DNA of 64,000 nucleotides from Actinopolymorpha cephalotaxi. GTDB lineage: Bacteria; Actinomycetota; Actinomycetes; Propionibacteriales; Actinopolymorphaceae. The notes under the pieces are model-generated. The model ran no database searches and was not told where the DNA came from. It saw only the letters and a list, made by a program, of their open reading frames with translations. Position numbers and translations under genes: made by a program. Position 1 is the first letter of the stretch. The number at the start of each line of letters is the position of its first letter. Location of the stretch: positions 1,302,001 through 1,366,000 of the forward strand of contig NZ_JACBZA010000001.1 in assembly GCF_013408535.1 (NCBI RefSeq). The letters are read 5' to 3'. Shown one piece after another: positions 3,538 to 15,848 of this stretch.

Positions 3538-5142
3538 ATGAGCAGTGGGCAACTCGGACGCCGGACCTTCCTGCGCAGGTGCGGCACCTCCGCGTTGGTG
3601 CTCGGCGCGGCGGGAATGGGCGGGGTCGGCGTGCCGGCCCTCGCGCCGGGCCGCCGCGCCTTTGCGGCGACGACGTACGACTACACGGCCCGGGAGACGT
3701 ACGACGTCTTCGACCGCACCTTCCACGAGAGCGGAGGAGCCGGGCAGCCGGACCAGCCGAACGACGCCGGCGGCCTGGCGTGGGGTCAGTCGTACGTGCT
3801 GGCGAGTTTCCTGCGGATGTACGACGCCTACCGCGACACCTACTACCTCGACCGGTTCGTGCACAACGCGGACCTGGTGCTCGCCAACCGCGACAGCGAG
3901 CGCGGCGTCACCGACTACGCCGGACGGTCCCGGCCGGCGTGGCGGGCGGCGAACCCCTACACGGTGGGGATCGCCCGGCTCTCCGGGGCCGGTGGTGTGC
4001 CGGTGCTGGAGGTACGCAGTGCGCTGGCCAACGCCGACCGGGCGACCGCGACCGTGCGGGCCGGTGAGGGCGGACGGTTCACCCTCGCGGTGACGAACGC
4101 GCAGTACGCCCGGACCGACACGTTCACCGACGTGACCATGGACCCGGCCAGTCCCGACTACGTTGTCACCAGGGTGTACGACGCGTACCCCACCGGCACG
4201 ATGGTGACCGTGCGGGACCTGCGTCCTGCGCCCGCGGCGGGTGACCCGCCGGCGCCGGGCGACACCGCCCTCGCCTCCGCGCCGGTCGTGTTCGCCGTGC
4301 ACACCGGGATGATCAGCTATCCGCTGGCGTGGTTCGCCGCCACCGTGCTCACCGACGCGCGCCTGCGCAGCGATCCGCGGTACCGCCGCAAGGCGGAGGA
4401 GTACGCCGCGGCCGCTCGGGACGCGGCCGCTGTGCACGACGAGGAGTGGCGGGACGGGCCCGACGGCACCGGATGGTTCCAGTGGCCCAAGGGCATGCCG
4501 CTCCCGTACGACGGCACCATCGCACCCATCAACCAGAGTGTCGCGCTCGGCCGCACCTACCTCGCGCTCGCGGAGGTGTCCCGGGACGGGACCTACCGCG
4601 ATCGGGCGAGCCGGCTGGCCAGGATGTTCGCCGCGCAACTTGAGGTTGACAGCGGCGGCGCGGCGACCTGGCACTACTGGCCGACCACCAGCCGGATGTA
4701 CGACGGCTACGCCAAGACCGGTGATCCCGCCACGGACGTGTCGATCTACACCCCGGCGTACGGGTCGGCCGGCCGCGGCGCCCAGCAGTACGAGGACGTG
4801 AGCCACGGCGCGATCGAGGTGGACTTCGCGGTCCGGGCGTTCCGGTCCGGGGTCGTCTTCCGCGGTGCCGACCTGGCGGCGCTGGCCGCGACGTACACCC
4901 GCAACCTCGCCACCACGACAGCCGAGGGCATCGCCACCACGAACACCCGCGTCGACGGCGGCGGCGGGCTCGCCGCGTCCGGGCAGTACCTCCAGGCACC
5001 CCGGTGGATGGCGGTCGCGTGGTGGGACGAGCGGGTGTTCGCCCATTCGCGGGCGATCTACGACGACCACCAGGTCCAGCCCGGGTCCGGGTCCGGCCTG
5101 CTGAACGTCGCCAACCTCAACTGGTACGCCCGCCGCGGCTGA
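3538..5142 (+). CDS. Tat-exported alpha/alpha-toroid protein, possible glycan-active enzyme
   Basis: A 534-residue protein with a clear twin-arginine signal: RRTFLRR (residues 8-14), an Ala/Gly/Leu core and a cleavage site near AFA-AT (43-44). SD GAGGAGGAA precedes ATG 3538. The mature part has repeated paired helices with aromatic/acidic patches (LAWGQSYVLASFLRMYDAY, PINQSVALGRTYLALAEV), typical of (alpha/alpha)6 toroids found in glycoside hydrolases, polysaccharide lyases and C5-epimerase C-terminal domains. A beta-rich insert lies at about residues 150-240. Its location beside importer and lyase genes fits extracellular glycan processing. I cannot assign a GH/PL family. Confidence 0.55.
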   Translation: MSSGQLGRRTFLRRCGTSALVLGAAGMGGVGVPALAPGRRAFAATTYDYTARETYDVFDRTFHESGGAGQPDQPNDAGGLAWGQSYVLASFLRMYDAYRDTYYLDRFVHNADLVLANRDSERGVTDYAGRSRPAWRAANPYTVGIARLSGAGGVPVLEVRSALANADRATATVRAGEGGRFTLAVTNAQYARTDTFTDVTMDPASPDYVVTRVYDAYPTGTMVTVRDLRPAPAAGDPPAPGDTALASAPVVFAVHTGMISYPLAWFAATVLTDARLRSDPRYRRKAEEYAAAARDAAAVHDEEWRDGPDGTGWFQWPKGMPLPYDGTIAPINQSVALGRTYLALAEVSRDGTYRDRASRLARMFAAQLEVDSGGAATWHYWPTTSRMYDGYAKTGDPATDVSIYTPAYGSAGRGAQQYEDVSHGAIEVDFAVRAFRSGVVFRGADLAALAATYTRNLATTTAEGIATTNTRVDGGGGLAASGQYLQAPRWMAVAWWDERVFAHSRAIYDDHQVQPGSGSGLLNVANLNWYARRG

Positions 5143-5151
5143 GCGGCACTG

Positions 5152-5658
5152 TCAGTCCTCCTGGCCCGAACGAGCTCGTCGGGTGCGCTGGATCGCCTCG
5201 TCGACCGCCGTGAGGTTTCCCTCCTCCCAGCGACGCTCGGTCTCGATGCCTTCGATGCGCCATCCGTCGGAGGTTCGGCGCAGATGGTTGGTGTAGATGG
5301 CACGCAGCAGATAGAACTCGCCGTTCGGGGAGCCCTGGATCAGGTGCTGGGCGTACATCGCCGACACGCAGGTGGCTCGATCGGGATCCGCGGCGTCGAA
5401 CGTGATGACGTGGTTGGTGCTCAGGTGTTGGGTCAGCGTGAACCCGTCGAGCGCCTCCGAGATCAGCGCGACCAGCTCCGCGCGGCTGGTCGAGCTGGCG
5501 GGCCGGCCGTCGCGGTACTCCGTCAGCACCGGGTCGGTGAAGCAGCGGGTGAAGGTCGCCCAGTCCCTGCGGTCGACGTTCAGGCAGTAGTTCACCACGG
5601 TCTCACTGATGGCGGCCCGGTCCTCGAGCCGCCGGACCCGGGTGGCGAGATCGTCCAT
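5152..5658 (-). CDS. SnoaL-like / NTF2-fold protein
   Basis: A 168-residue protein of the nuclear-transport-factor-2 superfamily (SnoaL_4-like). The N-terminal helix RLEDRAAISETVVNYCLNVDRRDW is followed by FTDPVLTEYRDG and the curved sheet segments with TNHVITFD and GWRIEGIETERRWEEG. Such proteins are small hydrolases, isomerases or binding proteins; no substrate can be read from the sequence. It converges with the 3538-5142 gene (9-nt gap). A tandem array of 43-bp repeats begins 37 nt upstream of its start codon and could affect its transcription. Confidence 0.8.
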   Translation of the reverse strand: MDDLATRVRRLEDRAAISETVVNYCLNVDRRDWATFTRCFTDPVLTEYRDGRPASSTSRAELVALISEALDGFTLTQHLSTNHVITFDAADPDRATCVSAMYAQHLIQGSPNGEFYLLRAIYTNHLRRTSDGWRIEGIETERRWEEGNLTAVDEAIQRTRRARSGQED

Positions 5659-5695
5659 GGCCGGCCCTCCCAGGGGCTTTCTGAAGCTGTAGAAG

Positions 5696-5886
5696 ACAGT
5701 AGGGCCGCCGACCGCAGTTGGCCCACGGCGCTGCAGAAACAGTAGGGCCGTCGGCCGCAGTTGGCCCGCGAAGCTTGGAAAGACAGTAGGGCCGTCGGCC
5801 GCAGTTGGCGCACGGCTGGCGGAAACAGTAGGGCCGCCGACCGCAGTTGGCCCACGGCGCTGCAGAAACAGTAGGGCCGTCGGCCC
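5696..5886. repeat. Tandem array, 4.4 copies of a 43-bp unit
   Basis: Units start at 5696, 5739, 5783, 5825 and 5868 (periods 43, 44, 42, 43). Each begins ACAGTAGGGCCGYCGRCC and continues GCAGTTGGC, followed by a more variable 15-17 nt. Copies 1 and 4 are identical over 43 bp, and copies 2 and 5 start identically, so a three-unit block (129 bp) was probably duplicated. Copies 2, 3 and 5 contain a short palindrome GGCCGTCGGCC. Not coding, not CRISPR. Confidence 0.9.
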
Positions 5887-5896
5887 ACCCCGCGGA

Positions 5897-5913
5897 GGTC
5901 GGCGGCCCTACTG
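5897..5913. repeat. Inverted copy of the 43-bp array core
   Basis: GGTCGGCGGCCCTACTG is the exact reverse complement of the core of array copies 1 and 4 (5697-5713). With copy 5 (5869 onward) it can fold into a hairpin with one mismatch around a short GC-rich loop. Confidence 0.75.
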
Positions 5914-5969
5914 CGTTACCGAGCCTACGACGTGTGTCCCACGGCTCGTCTCCGACCCGCGCTCTGCCG

Positions 5970-6017
5970 AAGTGTGGAGACTTACGGGGCCTATAGCACC
6001 CGTAAGTCTCCACACTT
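5970..6017. repeat. Perfect 19-bp inverted repeat (hairpin, family B)
   Basis: Arms AAGTGTGGAGACTTACGGG (5970-5988) and its exact complement (5999-6017) flank a 10-nt AT-richer loop. It lies 79 nt downstream of the DegT gene stop on the minus strand and could terminate that transcript, although no T-run follows. Its arm resembles the AGTGTGAAGACCT arms at 24909 and 24983. Confidence 0.8.
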
Positions 6018-6095
6018 CCCCGAGTGTCCGAGGGGTGGATGCCCGGCGACCCCGACACGCAGGACGGACGCCGGGCACCGGCCGAGCCCCACCGG

Positions 6096-7307
6096 TCAGA
6101 GCGTGTCGGCCTCGCCGAGGACCTTGCGCACCGCCGAGGCGATGTCGCGTACGTCGTCCTCGGTGCCGAGCAAAGCCTGCTGCGGCAGCCACACCGTGTC
6201 GGCGGCCACCAGATCGGCACCCGGCACCAGCGGCGGCTCGGCGTACGGGAGGTCGAGCCGTTTGGTGAGCGCGGCGATCTCCTCCCGCAGGGCGTTGTTG
6301 CGGTGCAGTCCGACGTAACCGCCCGAGCAGGGGATGCCCTCGGCGGCCAGCGCCTGCACGAACGCGTCCCGCTTCCCGGCCGCACCCAGCGCGGGCAGCC
6401 GCATCAGGAACAGGTGCCACCCGTGTGCGGTGACGTTCGGATCCCGCGAGGGAAGCGACACGCCCTCCACCTCACCCAGCAGCGACCCGAGCAACCGCGC
6501 GTTGACGTCCCGCGTCGTCTGCGTCCCTGGGTGGTCGCGCAGCTGCCCGGCCAGGATCGCCGCCTGGAACTCCGTCAGCCGCAGGTTGTAGCCCAGGTGC
6601 TCGTGTTGGTACCACCCGCCGCCGCGAACCCGGCCGACGTTGACGAGCGCGTACAGGTGTTCGGCCAGCCGGTCGTCGTTGGTCACCACGGCGCCGCCCT
6701 CGCCGGCACTCATGTTCTTCGACGTCTGGAAGCTGAACGTCCCGAGGTCGCCGAGCGCGCCGACACGACGGCCGCGCCACTCCGCGCCGTGGGCCTGCGC
6801 GGCGTCCTCGATGATCGCCACGCCGTGCTCGCGGCCGAGTGCGGCGAACGCGTCGAGGTCGCACGGCCGGCCGGCGATGTGCACCGGCATCACCGCCCGG
6901 GTGCGCGGGGTGATCGCGGCCGCGGCCGCCGCCGGGTCGAGCAGGTGGGTGGCCGGGTCGACGTCGGCGAACACCGGGACCGCGCCGACGAGCACCACGG
7001 CCGCCGCGCTGGCGATGAAGGTGTACGGCGGAACGACCACCTCGTCGCCGATCCCGACCCCGGCCGCACGCAGCGCGGCGACCAGCGCCAGGGTTCCGTT
7101 GCTCACGCAGATGCAGTGCGCCGCCTGCTGGTACGCCGCGAAGTCGCGTTCGAACGCGGCCACCCGGTCGCCGTGCGTGCTGCCCCACCTGCCGGACTCC
7201 AGGACGTCGAGCAGTTCGGCGCCCACCTGCTGGTCGGCGCGAGGCCAGGCGGGGAACGGTTGGGTACGGACGGGAGTGCCGCCCCGGAGGGCGAGCGTGC
7301 TGGCCAT
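6096..7307 (-). CDS. DegT/DnrJ/EryC1/StrS-family PLP aminotransferase
   Basis: A 403-residue fold-type I PLP enzyme that transaminates keto-sugars or cyclitols. The chosen ATG at 7307 (MASTLALRGGTPVRT) has GAGGTG 10 nt upstream; an in-frame GTG four codons earlier is possible. Key residues: SNGTLAL phosphate-binding loop (69-75), PPYTF (93-97), IIEDAAQAHGA with the pyridine-binding Asp168, and catalytic Lys197 in FSFQTSKNMSAGEGG. The LRGGTPVR start is common in StsC/AHBA-synthase-like members. It runs in the same direction as the heparinase-family gene upstream (97-nt gap) and has a paralogue just beyond it at 10862. The specific sugar is unknown. Confidence 0.9.
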   Translation of the reverse strand: MASTLALRGGTPVRTQPFPAWPRADQQVGAELLDVLESGRWGSTHGDRVAAFERDFAAYQQAAHCICVSNGTLALVAALRAAGVGIGDEVVVPPYTFIASAAAVVLVGAVPVFADVDPATHLLDPAAAAAAITPRTRAVMPVHIAGRPCDLDAFAALGREHGVAIIEDAAQAHGAEWRGRRVGALGDLGTFSFQTSKNMSAGEGGAVVTNDDRLAEHLYALVNVGRVRGGGWYQHEHLGYNLRLTEFQAAILAGQLRDHPGTQTTRDVNARLLGSLLGEVEGVSLPSRDPNVTAHGWHLFLMRLPALGAAGKRDAFVQALAAEGIPCSGGYVGLHRNNALREEIAALTKRLDLPYAEPPLVPGADLVAADTVWLPQQALLGTEDDVRDIASAVRKVLGEADTL

Positions 7308-12149: not shown

Positions 12150-13751
12150 TCAGGTGGTGGCGAACGCGGCCATCATCGCCATGTCCTCGTGCTCGAGGTT
12201 GTGGCAGTGCAGGAGGTACGGCCCGCGGTAGTCGGTGAAGCGCACCGCGACGTCGACGTACTCCGTGGGCCGCAGGTCGACGGTGTCCTTCCAGCCGGCG
12301 TCGTACTGCCCGGGGCCGCGGTTGCCGCGCCGGACCACCTGGAACGGGTCGAGGTGCACGTGCACCGGGTGGTGCAGGTCGGCCTGGAACCGCCAGATCT
12401 CGATGTCGCCGAGCCGGGGCCGGGCGTCCATCCGGCGCGGGTCGAACGGCCGGCCGTTGATGGTCCAGCCCCTCTCGCCGTGCACGTCGCCCTTGGCGAA
12501 CCGCCACTCCCGCGTCCGCACCGCCCTGGCGGGGTCGTGCTTCTCGATCCTGCTCAGCCTGGAAGGGATCGCGCTGTCGTCCCTGACCCGGTGGGTCACC
12601 CGGAACCGCATCACCCGCGCGGTCGGCCCGCTGCCCAGCTGGTTGACCATCGTCACCAGCGTTCCGGGCCTGTACGCCGAGAAGTCCACCACCACGTCGA
12701 AGCGCTCGGCCGGCGCGGCGACGATGGCGTCCTGGTCCACGGGGTGTTCGAGCAGGCCGCCGTCCCCGCCGATCTGCACGAACGGCGCGCCCTCGCCGGG
12801 CCCCGGGTCCAGCGCGAGCCGGTAGCGGCGGGCGTTGGAGGCGTTCAGGATCCGGAAGCGGTAGCGTGCGGCGGCCACCTCCAGCACCGGCCACGGCGCG
12901 CCGTTGACCAGGATGACGTCGCCCACGACGCCTTCCATGTAGGCGGAGGTGACACCGGGCGTGGAGCGCAGCTCCCGGTCGAGCGCGGGATAACGGAAGG
13001 CGCCGTTCTCCTCGAACGAGCGGTCGCAGATCATCAGCGGCACGTCGCGCTCGCCGCTCGGCAGCGGCAGTGCCTGCTCCTCGTCGTCGTGCACCAGGTG
13101 GAACCCGGCAAGGCCGCGGTAGACCTGCGCGCCGGTGAAGTCCATCCGGTGGTCGTGGTACCACAACGTCGCCGCGCGCTGGTGGAACGGATAGGCGTAG
13201 TCGCGTACGCCCTTGCGGACGTCGCCGGGCATGGAGGCCATCGGACTCATGTCCTGCCCACCGTGGCCGGAGCGGTGCGCCGCACCCGGGTTCCAGCCGC
13301 CGACCGGCAGCAGCAGGTCGATCGGGTAGCCGTCGTGCTCGGGCGGGGTGTGCCCGCCGTGCAGGTGCACCACCGTCGGCACCGGAAGGGTGTTGCGATG
13401 TCGTACGACGGTCCTCCGGCCGCTGCGGCTCACCAGCGTGGGCCCGGGGAACGTGCCGTCGTACCCGAGGATCGGTGTCGTCAGGCCCGGCAGGATCTCC
13501 GCGTCCGCGACCCGCTGCACGATCTCGTAGTAGTCGGTGGTGGCGTCGCTGCGCAAGGGCTTCTTGACAGCGGGCACCGGCAGCGGCACGGCGTAGGGCC
13601 GGGGGGTCGGCAGCCGGCTCGGCAGCAGCTGGGCGGTCTGCCCGGTGGTGTCCCGCCCGCAGCCGGTCAGGCCGAACGACCCGGCGACACCGGCCGCACC
13701 GGCCGCGCCGACCAGCCCGAGGAAACCTCGCCTTGACAGCGGCGTACTCAT
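12150..13751 (-). CDS. Multicopper oxidase (CotA/bilirubin-oxidase-like), Tat and lipoprotein signals
   Basis: A 533-residue exported copper oxidase that couples substrate oxidation to O2 reduction. Twin-arginine motif SRRGFLG (6-12) and a lipobox LTGC (Cys31) indicate Tat export followed by lipid anchoring outside the membrane. Copper motifs: HLHG (129-132), WYHDHRMD (about 187-194), HPVHVH (about 455) and the T1/T2/T3 signature HCHNLEHEDM (515-524). The His residues expected for T2/T3 are present, with Met524 as a possible T1 axial ligand. Its start overlaps the stop of a four-helix membrane protein gene by 4 bp, so it is the third gene of a tight operon starting near 14694. Confidence 0.95.
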   Translation of the reverse strand: MSTPLSRRGFLGLVGAAGAAGVAGSFGLTGCGRDTTGQTAQLLPSRLPTPRPYAVPLPVPAVKKPLRSDATTDYYEIVQRVADAEILPGLTTPILGYDGTFPGPTLVSRSGRRTVVRHRNTLPVPTVVHLHGGHTPPEHDGYPIDLLLPVGGWNPGAAHRSGHGGQDMSPMASMPGDVRKGVRDYAYPFHQRAATLWYHDHRMDFTGAQVYRGLAGFHLVHDDEEQALPLPSGERDVPLMICDRSFEENGAFRYPALDRELRSTPGVTSAYMEGVVGDVILVNGAPWPVLEVAAARYRFRILNASNARRYRLALDPGPGEGAPFVQIGGDGGLLEHPVDQDAIVAAPAERFDVVVDFSAYRPGTLVTMVNQLGSGPTARVMRFRVTHRVRDDSAIPSRLSRIEKHDPARAVRTREWRFAKGDVHGERGWTINGRPFDPRRMDARPRLGDIEIWRFQADLHHPVHVHLDPFQVVRRGNRGPGQYDAGWKDTVDLRPTEYVDVAVRFTDYRGPYLLHCHNLEHEDMAMMAAFATT

Positions 13752-14188
13752 CGACGGTTCTCCCTACGCACGCGGGCCCGGCGTGCTCGCGGGCCCAGCA
13801 GCCAACAGGTGAAGAGGATCTGGGTGAGGACCAGGCCCACACCGAGGGGGACGTGCACGAGCAGGTTCTGGGCGTAGCCGAGGACCGTCTGCGTCTCCGC
13901 CGCCACCAGCAGCGCCGCGGTCAGTGTCGCGGGCCACCAGCGGCCGCGGCCGCGCCACGCGTAGACCACTGCCGCCGCGAACTGCACGAACGCCAGCGCG
14001 GTGACCGCGTGCGCGTTGGCCTCGTGGATCCCGAGCGCGCCCACCTCACCGGTGAGATAGCTTCCGGCCAGTACCGGTTGGGCAAACACGATGATGGCCG
14101 TGAGCAGCGCGCAGATCCGTAACGCCAGCAGGGATCCGCGCGGGCGGGTGCCGGGCGGGGCCGGCCGGGAGTCGGTGGCTGTGGTCAT
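13748..14188 (-). CDS. Four-helix membrane protein, DUF6220-like, paralogue of the upstream gene
   Basis: A 146-residue integral membrane protein with four hydrophobic segments (about 22-42, 58-78, 86-106, 112-132). It overlaps its upstream paralogue by 4 bp and the multicopper oxidase start by 4 bp. Compared with that paralogue it conserves QPVLAG, His55, Asn58, QF, GRGR-WP, Glu98 with QT, GYA and VHVPLGV (His112). Intramembrane His and Glu at the same places in both copies could bind heme or copper. I recall a similar Q-LAG...H...H-PLG layout in DUF6220 proteins, but this cannot be confirmed here. Confidence 0.75.
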   Translation of the reverse strand: MTTATDSRPAPPGTRPRGSLLALRICALLTAIIVFAQPVLAGSYLTGEVGALGIHEANAHAVTALAFVQFAAAVVYAWRGRGRWWPATLTAALLVAAETQTVLGYAQNLLVHVPLGVGLVLTQILFTCWLLGPRARRARVRRENRR

Positions 14189-14694
14189 GCCCGCTCACCT
14201 GCCTTCGGCTGCCTGCGCAGGGTGCGCCGGGGGCGGCGGGCACCGGCCCGGAAGAGCCAGACCACGAACACCACCTGCGCGGTGACGACGGCGACGCCGA
14301 GGGGTACGTGCACGGCGAGTTGACCGGCGTACCCCATGGCCGTCTGGATTCCCTCGCCGAAGAACAGCAGGGCGGTCACCAGGAGGGGCCAGCCGCGTCC
14401 CCGGCCGGGCAGGAAGTAGACGAGCGCGGCGCCGAACTGGCACATGCAGGCGAGCATCACCAGGCCGGCGTTGAGGGAGTGGGTGGCGAGCGCGTCGAAA
14501 CGGCCACTGAGGTAGATCCCGGCGAGCACCGGCTGGCCGACCACCAGGCCGGCATGGACGAACGCGACGAACCGCAGCAGCCACAGCGTGACCCGTGGGC
14601 CGCCTGCGGGGAGGCCCGGCGGACTGGGCCGCGGGCCGGCGGTGAGGACGGAGGACGGCAACGAACCTCCCGGGTTCGGATGCGGACACCGCAC
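14185..14694 (-). CDS. Four-helix membrane protein, DUF6220-like (first gene of operon)
   Basis: Up to 169 residues with four membrane helices from about residue 36. Conserved with the next gene: QPVLAG, His72, QFGAALVY, GRGRGWP, Glu114, GYA, VHVPLGV (His129). The start is uncertain. GTG 14694 lies just after a TATAGT box, so it would be nearly leaderless, while TTG 14661 has GGGAGG 4 nt upstream and gives a shorter, more plausible N-terminus (LPSSVLTAG). The tandem duplication plus translational coupling to an exported multicopper oxidase suggests a membrane electron-transfer or metal-handling partner; no function is known. Confidence 0.75.
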   Translation of the reverse strand: MRCPHPNPGGSLPSSVLTAGPRPSPPGLPAGGPRVTLWLLRFVAFVHAGLVVGQPVLAGIYLSGRFDALATHSLNAGLVMLACMCQFGAALVYFLPGRGRGWPLLVTALLFFGEGIQTAMGYAGQLAVHVPLGVAVVTAQVVFVVWLFRAGARRPRRTLRRQPKAGERA

Positions 14695-14696
14695 AG

Positions 14697-14716
14697 ACTA
14701 TAGGTTGGCTGCCTAC
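14697..14716 (-). promoter_or_regulatory. -10 box and PadR-operator candidate for the multicopper oxidase operon
   Basis: On the minus strand TATAGT (14697-14702) is a good -10 for the 14694-12150 operon. Immediately upstream, between -10 and -35, is GTTGGCTGCCTAC (14704-14716), 11 of 13 identical to GTAGGCTGCATAC at the padR start (14839-14851). A repressor bound there would block transcription. Confidence 0.5.
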
Positions 14717-14838
14717 ACATGAATCAGGTTGTTCCCTGGTCTTCGCCGCCCGCATCCACCCCGGTATCGGCTCAGGGGAATGCCGGAGATCGTCCCTGAG
14801 GGACGCCCCGCTGAGGTGTCCGACAGTGCCGTGAATGA

Positions 14839-14853
14839 GTAGGCTGCATACTC
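14839..14853 (+). promoter_or_regulatory. padR promoter with autoregulatory operator, leaderless start
   Basis: TAGGCT (14840-14845) is a plausible actinobacterial -10 placed exactly 8 nt before the GTG at 14854, which has no SD. The same bases form GTAGGCTGCATAC, part of the inverted repeat GAGTA-N7-TACTC (14837-14853), a typical size for a PadR operator. No convincing -35 is seen. Confidence 0.5.
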
Positions 14854-15177
14854 GTGAAGGCCGACATCGTCCGCGGGCACCTGGACGCACTGCTGCTCGC
14901 CACCCTCGCCGACGGGCCCCTGCACGGCTACGCGATCATCGAGGCCCTGCAGGCCCGCAGCGGCGGCGTCCTCGACCTGCCCACCGGCAGCATCTATCCG
15001 GCGCTGCGCCGCCTCGAACGCGCGCGGTACATCTCCGGCCAGTGGGGCATCGTCGGCGGCCGGCGGCGCCGCACCTACCAGCTCACCCGCGCCGGGCGGC
15101 AGGAGCTGGCCCGGGAGCGGGCCGACTGGAGCCGGTTCACCACGGCGATCGGCGGTGTCCTGGGGGAGCCGGGATGA
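14854..15177 (+). CDS. PadR-family transcriptional regulator
   Basis: A 107-residue winged-helix protein with the standard PadR pattern: ADIVRGHLDALLLATLADGPLHGYAIIEAL, then LPTGSIYPALRRLERARYI (recognition helix and wing) and RRRRTYQLTRAGRQEL. The C-terminal dimer helix is short. GTG 14854 has no SD but lies 8 nt after a TAGGCT box, so a leaderless mRNA is likely. Its stop overlaps the next gene's ATG (ATGA), tying it to two HAAS-type membrane proteins, a common PadR partnership. A shared 13-bp motif suggests it also controls the divergent multicopper oxidase operon. Confidence 0.92.
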   Translation: MKADIVRGHLDALLLATLADGPLHGYAIIEALQARSGGVLDLPTGSIYPALRRLERARYISGQWGIVGGRRRRTYQLTRAGRQELARERADWSRFTTAIGGVLGEPG

Positions 15178-15848
15178 GCGCGCCGATCGACGGTTACGTC
15201 CGGCGGGTACGACACCTGCTGCCCGGTCCGGCGGCGGCCCGGTCGGAGCTGATGTGCGAGCTTTCCGACGGTCTGTACGACGCCGCGCGGGCCCACGTCC
15301 GTGCCGGCGTCGCGGCGGAGGAGGCCGGCGCGCGGGCGGTCGCCGACTGCGGGCCGGCCGAGGACACCGCGGCCGCGTACCGGCCCGAACTCACCGCCGT
15401 CCAGGGCCGGCACACCGCGATGCTGGTCGCCGTCCTCATGCCCGGCCTCAACCTGCTGTGGGACGTGCCGTGGATGATCTCCGGTCCGTGGAACGCCCCA
15501 CCGAACCCCGTCGTGTCGGCGTTGTCCCGCGTCGTCACCGGTTCGGACCTGCTGGCCGGCGGCAGCGCCGTGGTGTTGCTCCTCCTCATGGTGCTCGCCG
15601 CCCGGCGTGGCCGGCCGGCCACCTCGCTCACCGGCGCGGTGGCAGTGGTCGGCGTGCTCGCGTTCACGGTCACCCTCGGCTGCTCGGTGGCGATGATGGC
15701 CGTGAACGCCGACGGGCCGAGCCAGGCGTTCGCGACCTCCTGGATCGGACTGCTGGTGGGTTCGGTCACCCTCGGCTGTGCGTGCCTGCTGGTGCGGTCA
15801 CTGGTCCGGTCGCTGCGGTCGGCGTTCGCCGGCGTCCGTACGCCATGA
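15174..15848 (+). CDS. HAAS/DUF1700-like membrane protein
   Basis: A 224-residue protein. ATG 15174 overlaps the padR stop. The N-terminal ~75 residues (YVRRVRHLLPGPAAARSELMCELSDGLYDAA, then ARAVADCGPAEDTAAAYRPEL) match the helical HAAS/DUF1700-type domain often encoded next to PadR genes. About four membrane helices follow (VAVLMPGLNLLWDVPW, LLAGGSAVVLLLLMVL, VAVVGVLAFTVTL, WIGLLVGSVTLGCACLL). Probably a sensor or modulator of the PadR protein; the ligand is unknown. Paralogous to the next gene. Confidence 0.8.
   Translation: MSAPIDGYVRRVRHLLPGPAAARSELMCELSDGLYDAARAHVRAGVAAEEAGARAVADCGPAEDTAAAYRPELTAVQGRHTAMLVAVLMPGLNLLWDVPWMISGPWNAPPNPVVSALSRVVTGSDLLAGGSAVVLLLLMVLAARRGRPATSLTGAVAVVGVLAFTVTLGCSVAMMAVNADGPSQAFATSWIGLLVGSVTLGCACLLVRSLVRSLRSAFAGVRTP

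Follow-up and report, generated by a model that had tools for sequence, protein, structure and literature searches.

What could two small membrane proteins be doing directly in front of an exported copper enzyme? The question is raised by a 64,000-nucleotide stretch of the Actinopolymorpha cephalotaxi genome (contig NZ_JACBZA010000001.1, positions 1,302,001 to 1,366,000), part of a 6.86-Mb chromosome of this Actinopolymorpha species and hereafter called the window, in which genes for two four-helix proteins, B and A, precede that of a multicopper oxidase (MCO). An earlier note on this DNA had seen in the two proteins a membrane carrier that feeds electrons or copper to the oxidase. The reading that we favor, at a probability of about one half, is that the A/B family consists of four-helix bis-His heme-b proteins passing electrons to an exported type-1 copper centre. 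Genes of this family are coupled to those of type-1 copper proteins, their products carry an invariant pair of His, and A is modelled as a four-helix bundle; kinship with the heme-b bundle of CtaA is supported, albeit weakly, and heme binding, a quinol donor and the direction of electron flow are what we infer.

The membrane gene recurs in front of the oxidase gene

The three genes are consecutive open reading frames (ORFs) of the minus strand in the order B, A, MCO, and each junction is a 4-bp overlap. A and B are 47% identical, and the ORF coordinates agree with the tandem paralogues and overlaps described in the earlier note.

12150 to 13751, minus strand: three-domain MCO of 533 amino acids with a twin-arginine translocation (Tat) signal, an LTGC lipobox and copper-ligand residues present (ORF, Pfam, NCBIfam, alignment)
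13748 to 14188, minus strand: four-helix membrane protein A, 146 amino acids, adjoining the oxidase gene with a 4-bp overlap (ORF, AlphaFold2 model)
14185 to 14694, minus strand: four-helix membrane protein B, 169 amino acids, paralogue of A, with a 4-bp overlap with A (ORF, sequence comparison)

A has relatives (E 0.001 or better) in 29 of 57 genomes of the order, this one included. Around these matches 48 stretches were taken, two of them from the genome of the window, and four without a family member by profile were set aside; an MCO gene follows downstream on the same strand in 39 of the remaining 44 regions. Approached from the oxidase side, a four-helix gene lies immediately upstream of the MCO gene in 71 of 80 loci from many actinobacterial families, a figure that holds for near relatives of the window oxidase since these 80 were the best of 504 candidates ranked by likeness to it. 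An overlap of 4 bp between the two genes is possible in 63 of the 71, with the MCO start taken as the in-frame start nearest to such an overlap within 18 codons before the twin Arg, a choice that favors overlaps; neighboring genes were called by a simple codon-position script rather than a gene caller. The arrangement is more than chance, given that the gene order recurs in most of the relatives examined, and the expected clustering of these genes elsewhere was thus found on both sides of the survey.

The proposed triple of two membrane genes and an oxidase gene does recur, in 22 of the 39 order regions (in Actinopolymorpha and in a genus grouping with Kribbella in the tree), but it is not the general form, as only six of the 80 oxidase-side loci carry the tandem pair (L127, where the second match is a fragment, is not counted). 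The general unit, carried by many soil actinobacteria, is one membrane gene plus one oxidase gene, of which the tandem is an elaboration, and the paralogue pair, which the earlier note had treated as part of the device, is not essential: most oxidase-side loci have a single membrane gene. The two Kribbella copies form sister clades in the family tree (support 94/93, just under the high-support mark of the tool), and repeated origins of the tandem are therefore possible. The same genome carries a second, unlinked unit of four-helix gene and MCO gene at about 0.61 Mb (L034, about 4352-6327). At another locus a DoxX-like membrane gene (PF13564) stands directly before the pair of four-helix and MCO genes (L256:4590-4970).

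The exported oxidase

The oxidase matches Cu-oxidase_2 (79.5 bits) and Cu-oxidase_3 (62.5 bits), both above the Pfam cut-off, and its copper-ligand residues (HLH, HDH, HPVHVH, HCHNLEHEDM) are complete and invariant across eight aligned MCOs. Its nearest solved relatives are CotA-type and bilirubin oxidases, and PhsA is the nearest NCBIfam model. Assignment to PhsA (o-aminophenol oxidase; 232.9 bits vs. an equivalog cut-off of 950) or to CueO (copper efflux oxidase; 229.5 bits vs. 525) was rejected. The N-terminal region scores 19.9 bits with the TAT_signal_seq model (NCBIfam cut-off 16.7) and carries the LTGC lipobox along with the Tat signal, so that both export features ascribed to this protein are present in it. 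Its relatives share the Tat-like signal (77 of 80), but the lipobox is not general, occurring in 24 of those 77.

Two invariant histidines in a four-helix bundle

AlphaFold2 models A as a four-helix bundle (mean pLDDT 92.9) whose helices, of membrane length, span residues 17-45, 50-78, 85-106 and 109-131 and are followed by a short helix in the tail; this bears out the predicted fold for A, the protein that the model covers. Neither A nor B matches a Pfam family above cut-off, and a PHROGs search with A returned one family of unknown function (E 0.001). The residues of interest are listed below, with positions derived from the ORFs and counts from a 79-row family alignment.

14024 to 14026, minus strand: His55 of protein A (helix 2), proposed heme ligand (79/79)
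13853 to 13855, minus strand: His112 of protein A (helix 4, HVPLG), proposed heme ligand (79/79)
14078 to 14080, minus strand: Gln37 of protein A (helix 1; 77/79)
13889 to 13891, minus strand: Gln100 of protein A (helix 3), aligned to a Gln of the CtaA C bundle (72/79)
14479 to 14481, minus strand: His72 of protein B (helix 2), counterpart of His55
14308 to 14310, minus strand: His129 of protein B (helix 4), counterpart of His112

The His of helix 2 and that of helix 4, the latter within HVPLGV, are common to A and B and invariant not only in this alignment but also in a first set confined to the order (66/66 each). Each of the four conserved residues, His or Gln, has Gly, Ala or Ser four positions C-terminal to it in 76 to 79 of the 79 rows. 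The wider homologues of a phylum sample behave likewise: 36 of 396 genomes, the present one included, hold a match at E 1e-4 or better, and 39 stretches, less four without a family member by profile, gave 35 members, 33 of them with no MCO nearby, in which the two His are kept in 34/34 and 33/33 of the rows that reach these positions. The residue set of the earlier note thus stands as to its His pair. It falls as to the helix-3 Glu, whose distance to the conserved Gln that follows it is two residues in one paralogue and three in the other and which occupies the commoner of the two columns in only 34 of 79 rows; the conservation of the Glu is rejected on both counts, and the two conserved Gln had gone unnoticed. 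Because of the basic residues at the N end, middle loop and C end, and of the helix limits in the model of A, both His and both Gln are predicted to lie in the outer part of their helices, near the outer membrane face.

Likeness to the heme-b bundle of CtaA

Comparison of the family profile with that of CtaA (hhalign) gave P values of 0.0011-0.0012 (0.0011 on trimmed profiles). None of 100 block-shuffled controls reached the score of this alignment, and reversed profiles scored at background level. The corresponding values for DoxX, anthrone oxygenase-like and b561-type profiles were 0.2, 0.1 and 0.024, the first two being four-helix families that are not known as heme proteins. The alignment with the C half of CtaA pairs the helix-2 His, the helix-3 Gln-x3-Gly and the helix-4 His in register, and the A/B family therefore displays the His-pair pattern of the heme-b bundle, as judged from sequence pattern and register alone. 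In CtaA, heme b sits in the C bundle, coordinated by two His, and some archaea have heme A synthases of four helices only; the matching residues are His 216 and 278 of the B. subtilis protein, in helices VI and VIII (PMC12808453, PMC7327177).

A and B are not themselves COX15/CtaA members: the window proteins have no PF02628 match at E up to 1, and 57 aligned family members, which match 16 families at E up to 0.1, do not match PF02628. The genome holds a separate PF02628 gene above cut-off. Nor do they belong to cytochrome b561 (PF01292), with which B scores 9.9 bits (E 0.8) vs. a gathering threshold of 30.1, A not being listed. In 21 of the 23 actinobacterial CtaA proteins listed (loci L192-L219), visual inspection shows EFGNR or a close variant in helix 2 of the N half, the Asn standing at a position where the CtaA of L192 and L193 has His.

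A second membrane family and a second kind of copper partner

A related family, DUF6220 (PF19728), takes the place of the A/B protein at some loci. A DUF6220 protein fills the upstream slot in three further loci of the 80 (Rubrobacteraceae), and one of the 71 upstream proteins, in Haloactinopolyspora, is itself DUF6220 by Pfam (in all, DUF6220 stands in the MCO slot at L132, L134, L142 and L143). The two families align with P 1.4e-5 (143 family sequences; 7.6e-6 when trimmed), and DUF6220 aligns with CtaA at P 0.00024-0.00056 (0.00056 on trimmed profiles), no shuffle out of 100 reaching either score; one DUF6220 protein in the MCO slot has a Pfam COX15-CtaA match (E 0.0023) below cut-off. A and B are not DUF6220 members, as A scores 16.3 bits vs. 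a gathering threshold of 29.8 and B is not listed. A single DUF6220 sequence, searched against those of solved structures, gave two matches (E 0.34 and 0.93). The DUF6220 model, built on four sequences, has a pLDDT of 76.8. At L142:2997-3515 a second small membrane gene (Anthrone_oxy, 24.7 vs. 27.3 bits) overlaps the DUF6220 gene preceding the MCO.

Thirty DUF6220 loci were collected without reference to MCOs, namely 22 of the 24 matches above the Pfam cut-off (two had no locus) and eight below it. An MCO-type gene follows on the same strand in 21 of the 22 and in three of the eight, and two of these genes were confirmed as Cu-oxidase by Pfam. These MCOs match the profile of window-type MCOs weakly (E 2.3e-6 to 1.1e-14), and at L294, L295 and L299 their long N-terminal stretch resembles, by eye, several membrane helices before a Tat-like signal; on account of the weak match and the apparent extra helices we take them as another subfamily.

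The copper partner also varies within the A/B family. Two of the 35 members sampled across the phylum have an MCO, and six have a plastocyanin-like gene just upstream, small and with a lipoprotein-type start, for two of which Pfam confirms Copper-bind (PF00127). At all six loci an in-frame start of the four-helix gene falls within a span from 4 bp upstream to 2 bp downstream of the cupredoxin stop, the nearest of the possible starts having been taken, which favors overlaps; the cupredoxin profile was built from these six pattern-found loci and may miss other cupredoxins. Together, the DUF6220 loci and the MCO and cupredoxin loci of the A/B family link exported type-1 copper proteins of three kinds to two membrane families that are related.

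A possible electron route and its rivals

In the mechanism that we favor, the His of helix 2 and that of helix 4 would together hold one low-spin heme b close to the outer face, in the manner of the CtaA C-terminal bundle. The heme would be reduced, probably, by the menaquinol pool and would hand its electrons to a type-1 copper centre outside. In the window the acceptor would be the MCO, which would then reduce oxygen, and in some other actinobacterial lineages a plastocyanin-like lipoprotein would receive the electrons and carry them elsewhere. The membrane protein is assigned the role of donor because the recurrent partners share an exported type-1 copper centre and because the His pair predicted at the outer face is of heme type. 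A and B might pair into an assembly of two bundles resembling the two halves of CtaA; against this analogy, most of the 80 oxidase-side loci carry one four-helix gene only.

Several results weigh against the proposed electron route. Neither MCO nor cupredoxin was found in the fetched stretches of 27 of the 35 phylum-wide members, some of which end at contig ends, and several of the 27 adjoin unrelated genes, e.g. those of a glutaminase, a chloride channel or a hydrolase. Five of the 44 order regions, all from one other family of the order, lack an MCO, and six of the 80 MCO loci lack a membrane partner (L101 and L104 by ORFs; L108, L119, L129 and L156 by gene map). The link between the family and CtaA is weak, with an hhalign probability of about 20% and a modest P value among five comparison families tried, and for DUF6220 and CtaA the best shuffle reached 29.6 vs. 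an observed score of 32.1. No Pfam heme family scores above cut-off for the window proteins or the 57 aligned members. In structure searches, which told little either way, no Foldseek match of the model of A or of that of DUF6220 reached E 0.001, the VIA-align matches of both were generic bundles (mostly de novo and soluble helical proteins, with some oxidase subunits), solved CtaA was not among the 50 structure matches listed, and the family profiles matched no sequence of a solved structure at E up to 5. Finally, an invariant His could also bind copper or quinone.

The last point opens the way to two other explanations. The His pair could bind copper in the membrane, and the protein, acting as chaperone or carrier, could supply this copper to the exported type-1 copper protein, His being a copper ligand and all recurrent partners found being copper proteins, whether MCO or cupredoxin. 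In 62 of the 79 loci (17 were left out, some of them loci with no four-helix gene) the upstream neighbors were scanned, and one was a CtaG-type assembly factor, of a family linked to copper. The commonest regulators there were instead LysR (8), histidine kinase (8), PadR (7) and MarR (6), with no copper-sensing regulator among the 25 families listed of 45 found; LysR, PadR and MarR regulators often respond to small molecules, which is a mild argument against simple copper homeostasis. Known copper carriers use clusters of Met, Cys or His, whereas two His and Gln are found here, and the profile link points to a heme bundle, so that we regard copper delivery as unlikely. A little less likely still is a heme-free docking site at which the helix His and Gln hold menaquinol near the outer face and offer it straight to the type-1 copper. 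Quinones are commonly bound by His and Gln, and all four conserved residues fall in the outer helix part if the N end is inside; the two fully invariant His, each followed by a small residue one turn further on, and the register with the CtaA heme-b bundle suit heme better.

Two further explanations dispense with a cofactor or an electron route altogether. The tight overlap of the genes (63/71) would suit a membrane protein that only stabilizes or localizes the exported copper protein, an idea which we consider improbable since it leaves two invariant polar residues in hydrophobic helices unexplained, and since cupredoxins resembling self-anchored lipoproteins would not need an anchor. The least probable, to the point that we give it little credence, is an uptake system after the model of Fet3/Ftr1, where an MCO is paired with a membrane permease: Fe(II) or Mn(II) would be oxidized by the MCO, and the product would enter the cell through the membrane protein. 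The membrane protein has only four short helices, an acidic motif of the REXXE type was not seen by eye, no motif search having been run, and a cupredoxin partner would have no oxidase activity to supply the metal substrate.

On balance, the interpretation of the earlier note is plausible and better supported than it was from the sequence alone: the cupredoxin neighbors and the CtaA alignment strengthen the idea of a membrane carrier serving the oxidase, while the Glu, the pairing and the 27 of 35 distant members with neither copper partner nearby count against it. A broader proposal, which we put forward tentatively and with the odds somewhat against it, is that of a widespread actinobacterial module in which a minimal bis-His cytochrome b of CtaA-bundle ancestry, comprising the A/B family and DUF6220, drains menaquinol to exported type-1 copper proteins, the laccase-like oxidase serving as a membrane-coupled oxygen reductase and the lipoprotein cupredoxin as an electron carrier outside the cell.

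The divergent regulator gene

Two features on the other side of the locus may bear on its regulation.

14854 to 15177, plus strand: divergent PadR-family regulator, candidate operon regulator (Pfam PadR 80.6 bits; PadR upstream in 7/62 loci)
14837 to 14853, plus strand: palindrome GAGTA-N7-TACTC directly before the PadR gene, candidate operator (pattern count)

The palindrome is perfect and occurs once in the window vs. 0.02 expected, for a pattern picked after the sequence was seen. A TAGG...CCTA inverted repeat was noticed by eye at about 14700-14716, near the start of protein B, and the two repeats are candidate PadR operators for divergent promoters; a promoter and terminator scan found nothing. 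The gene after PadR (15174-15848) matches permease prefix domain 1 at 26.2 bits, just below the NCBIfam cut-off of 30.

Significance and relation to known systems

If true, this would be a previously undescribed route by which electrons of the membrane reach extracellular copper proteins; titles of publications on DUF6220, or on MCOs with a membrane or heme partner, did not describe such a unit, in a coverage outside which most subscription journals lie. Bacterial laccase-like oxidases are usually regarded as free-standing enzymes for phenols or copper defence. Should many of the actinobacterial ones have a dedicated membrane cytochrome, their physiological donor would be the respiratory chain instead of unknown phenols. 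The same reading would provide a functional handle on DUF6220 and on the unnamed family of the window, and would have consequences for tracing the origin of heme A synthase and its relation to a minimal four-helix heme bundle.

Among known oxidases, the window enzyme itself resembles MCOs of the CotA, bilirubin oxidase and phenoxazinone synthase type, none of which is known to work with a membrane partner; from PhsA and CueO it is set apart by scores far under both equivalog cut-offs. Cytochrome b561-type proteins, too, are bundles of membrane helices; their heme is ligated by His and they transfer electrons within the membrane, but their profile has no clear relation to that of the A/B family. 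DUF6220 shares with this family the Gln-His-Gln-His plan and the gene slot in front of the MCO, and differs in that its usual MCO partner appears to be of a different subfamily. The C-terminal heme-b bundle of CtaA has in common with the A/B family its four helices, the His in the second and fourth and the Gln-x3-Gly in the third. The differences are that CtaA/COX15 proteins usually have eight helices vs. four, that the A/B family has eight fewer alignment columns between helix 3 and the helix-4 His, and that the setting of CtaA is heme-copper oxidase assembly, whereas the recurrent partner of the A/B family is a type-1 copper protein.

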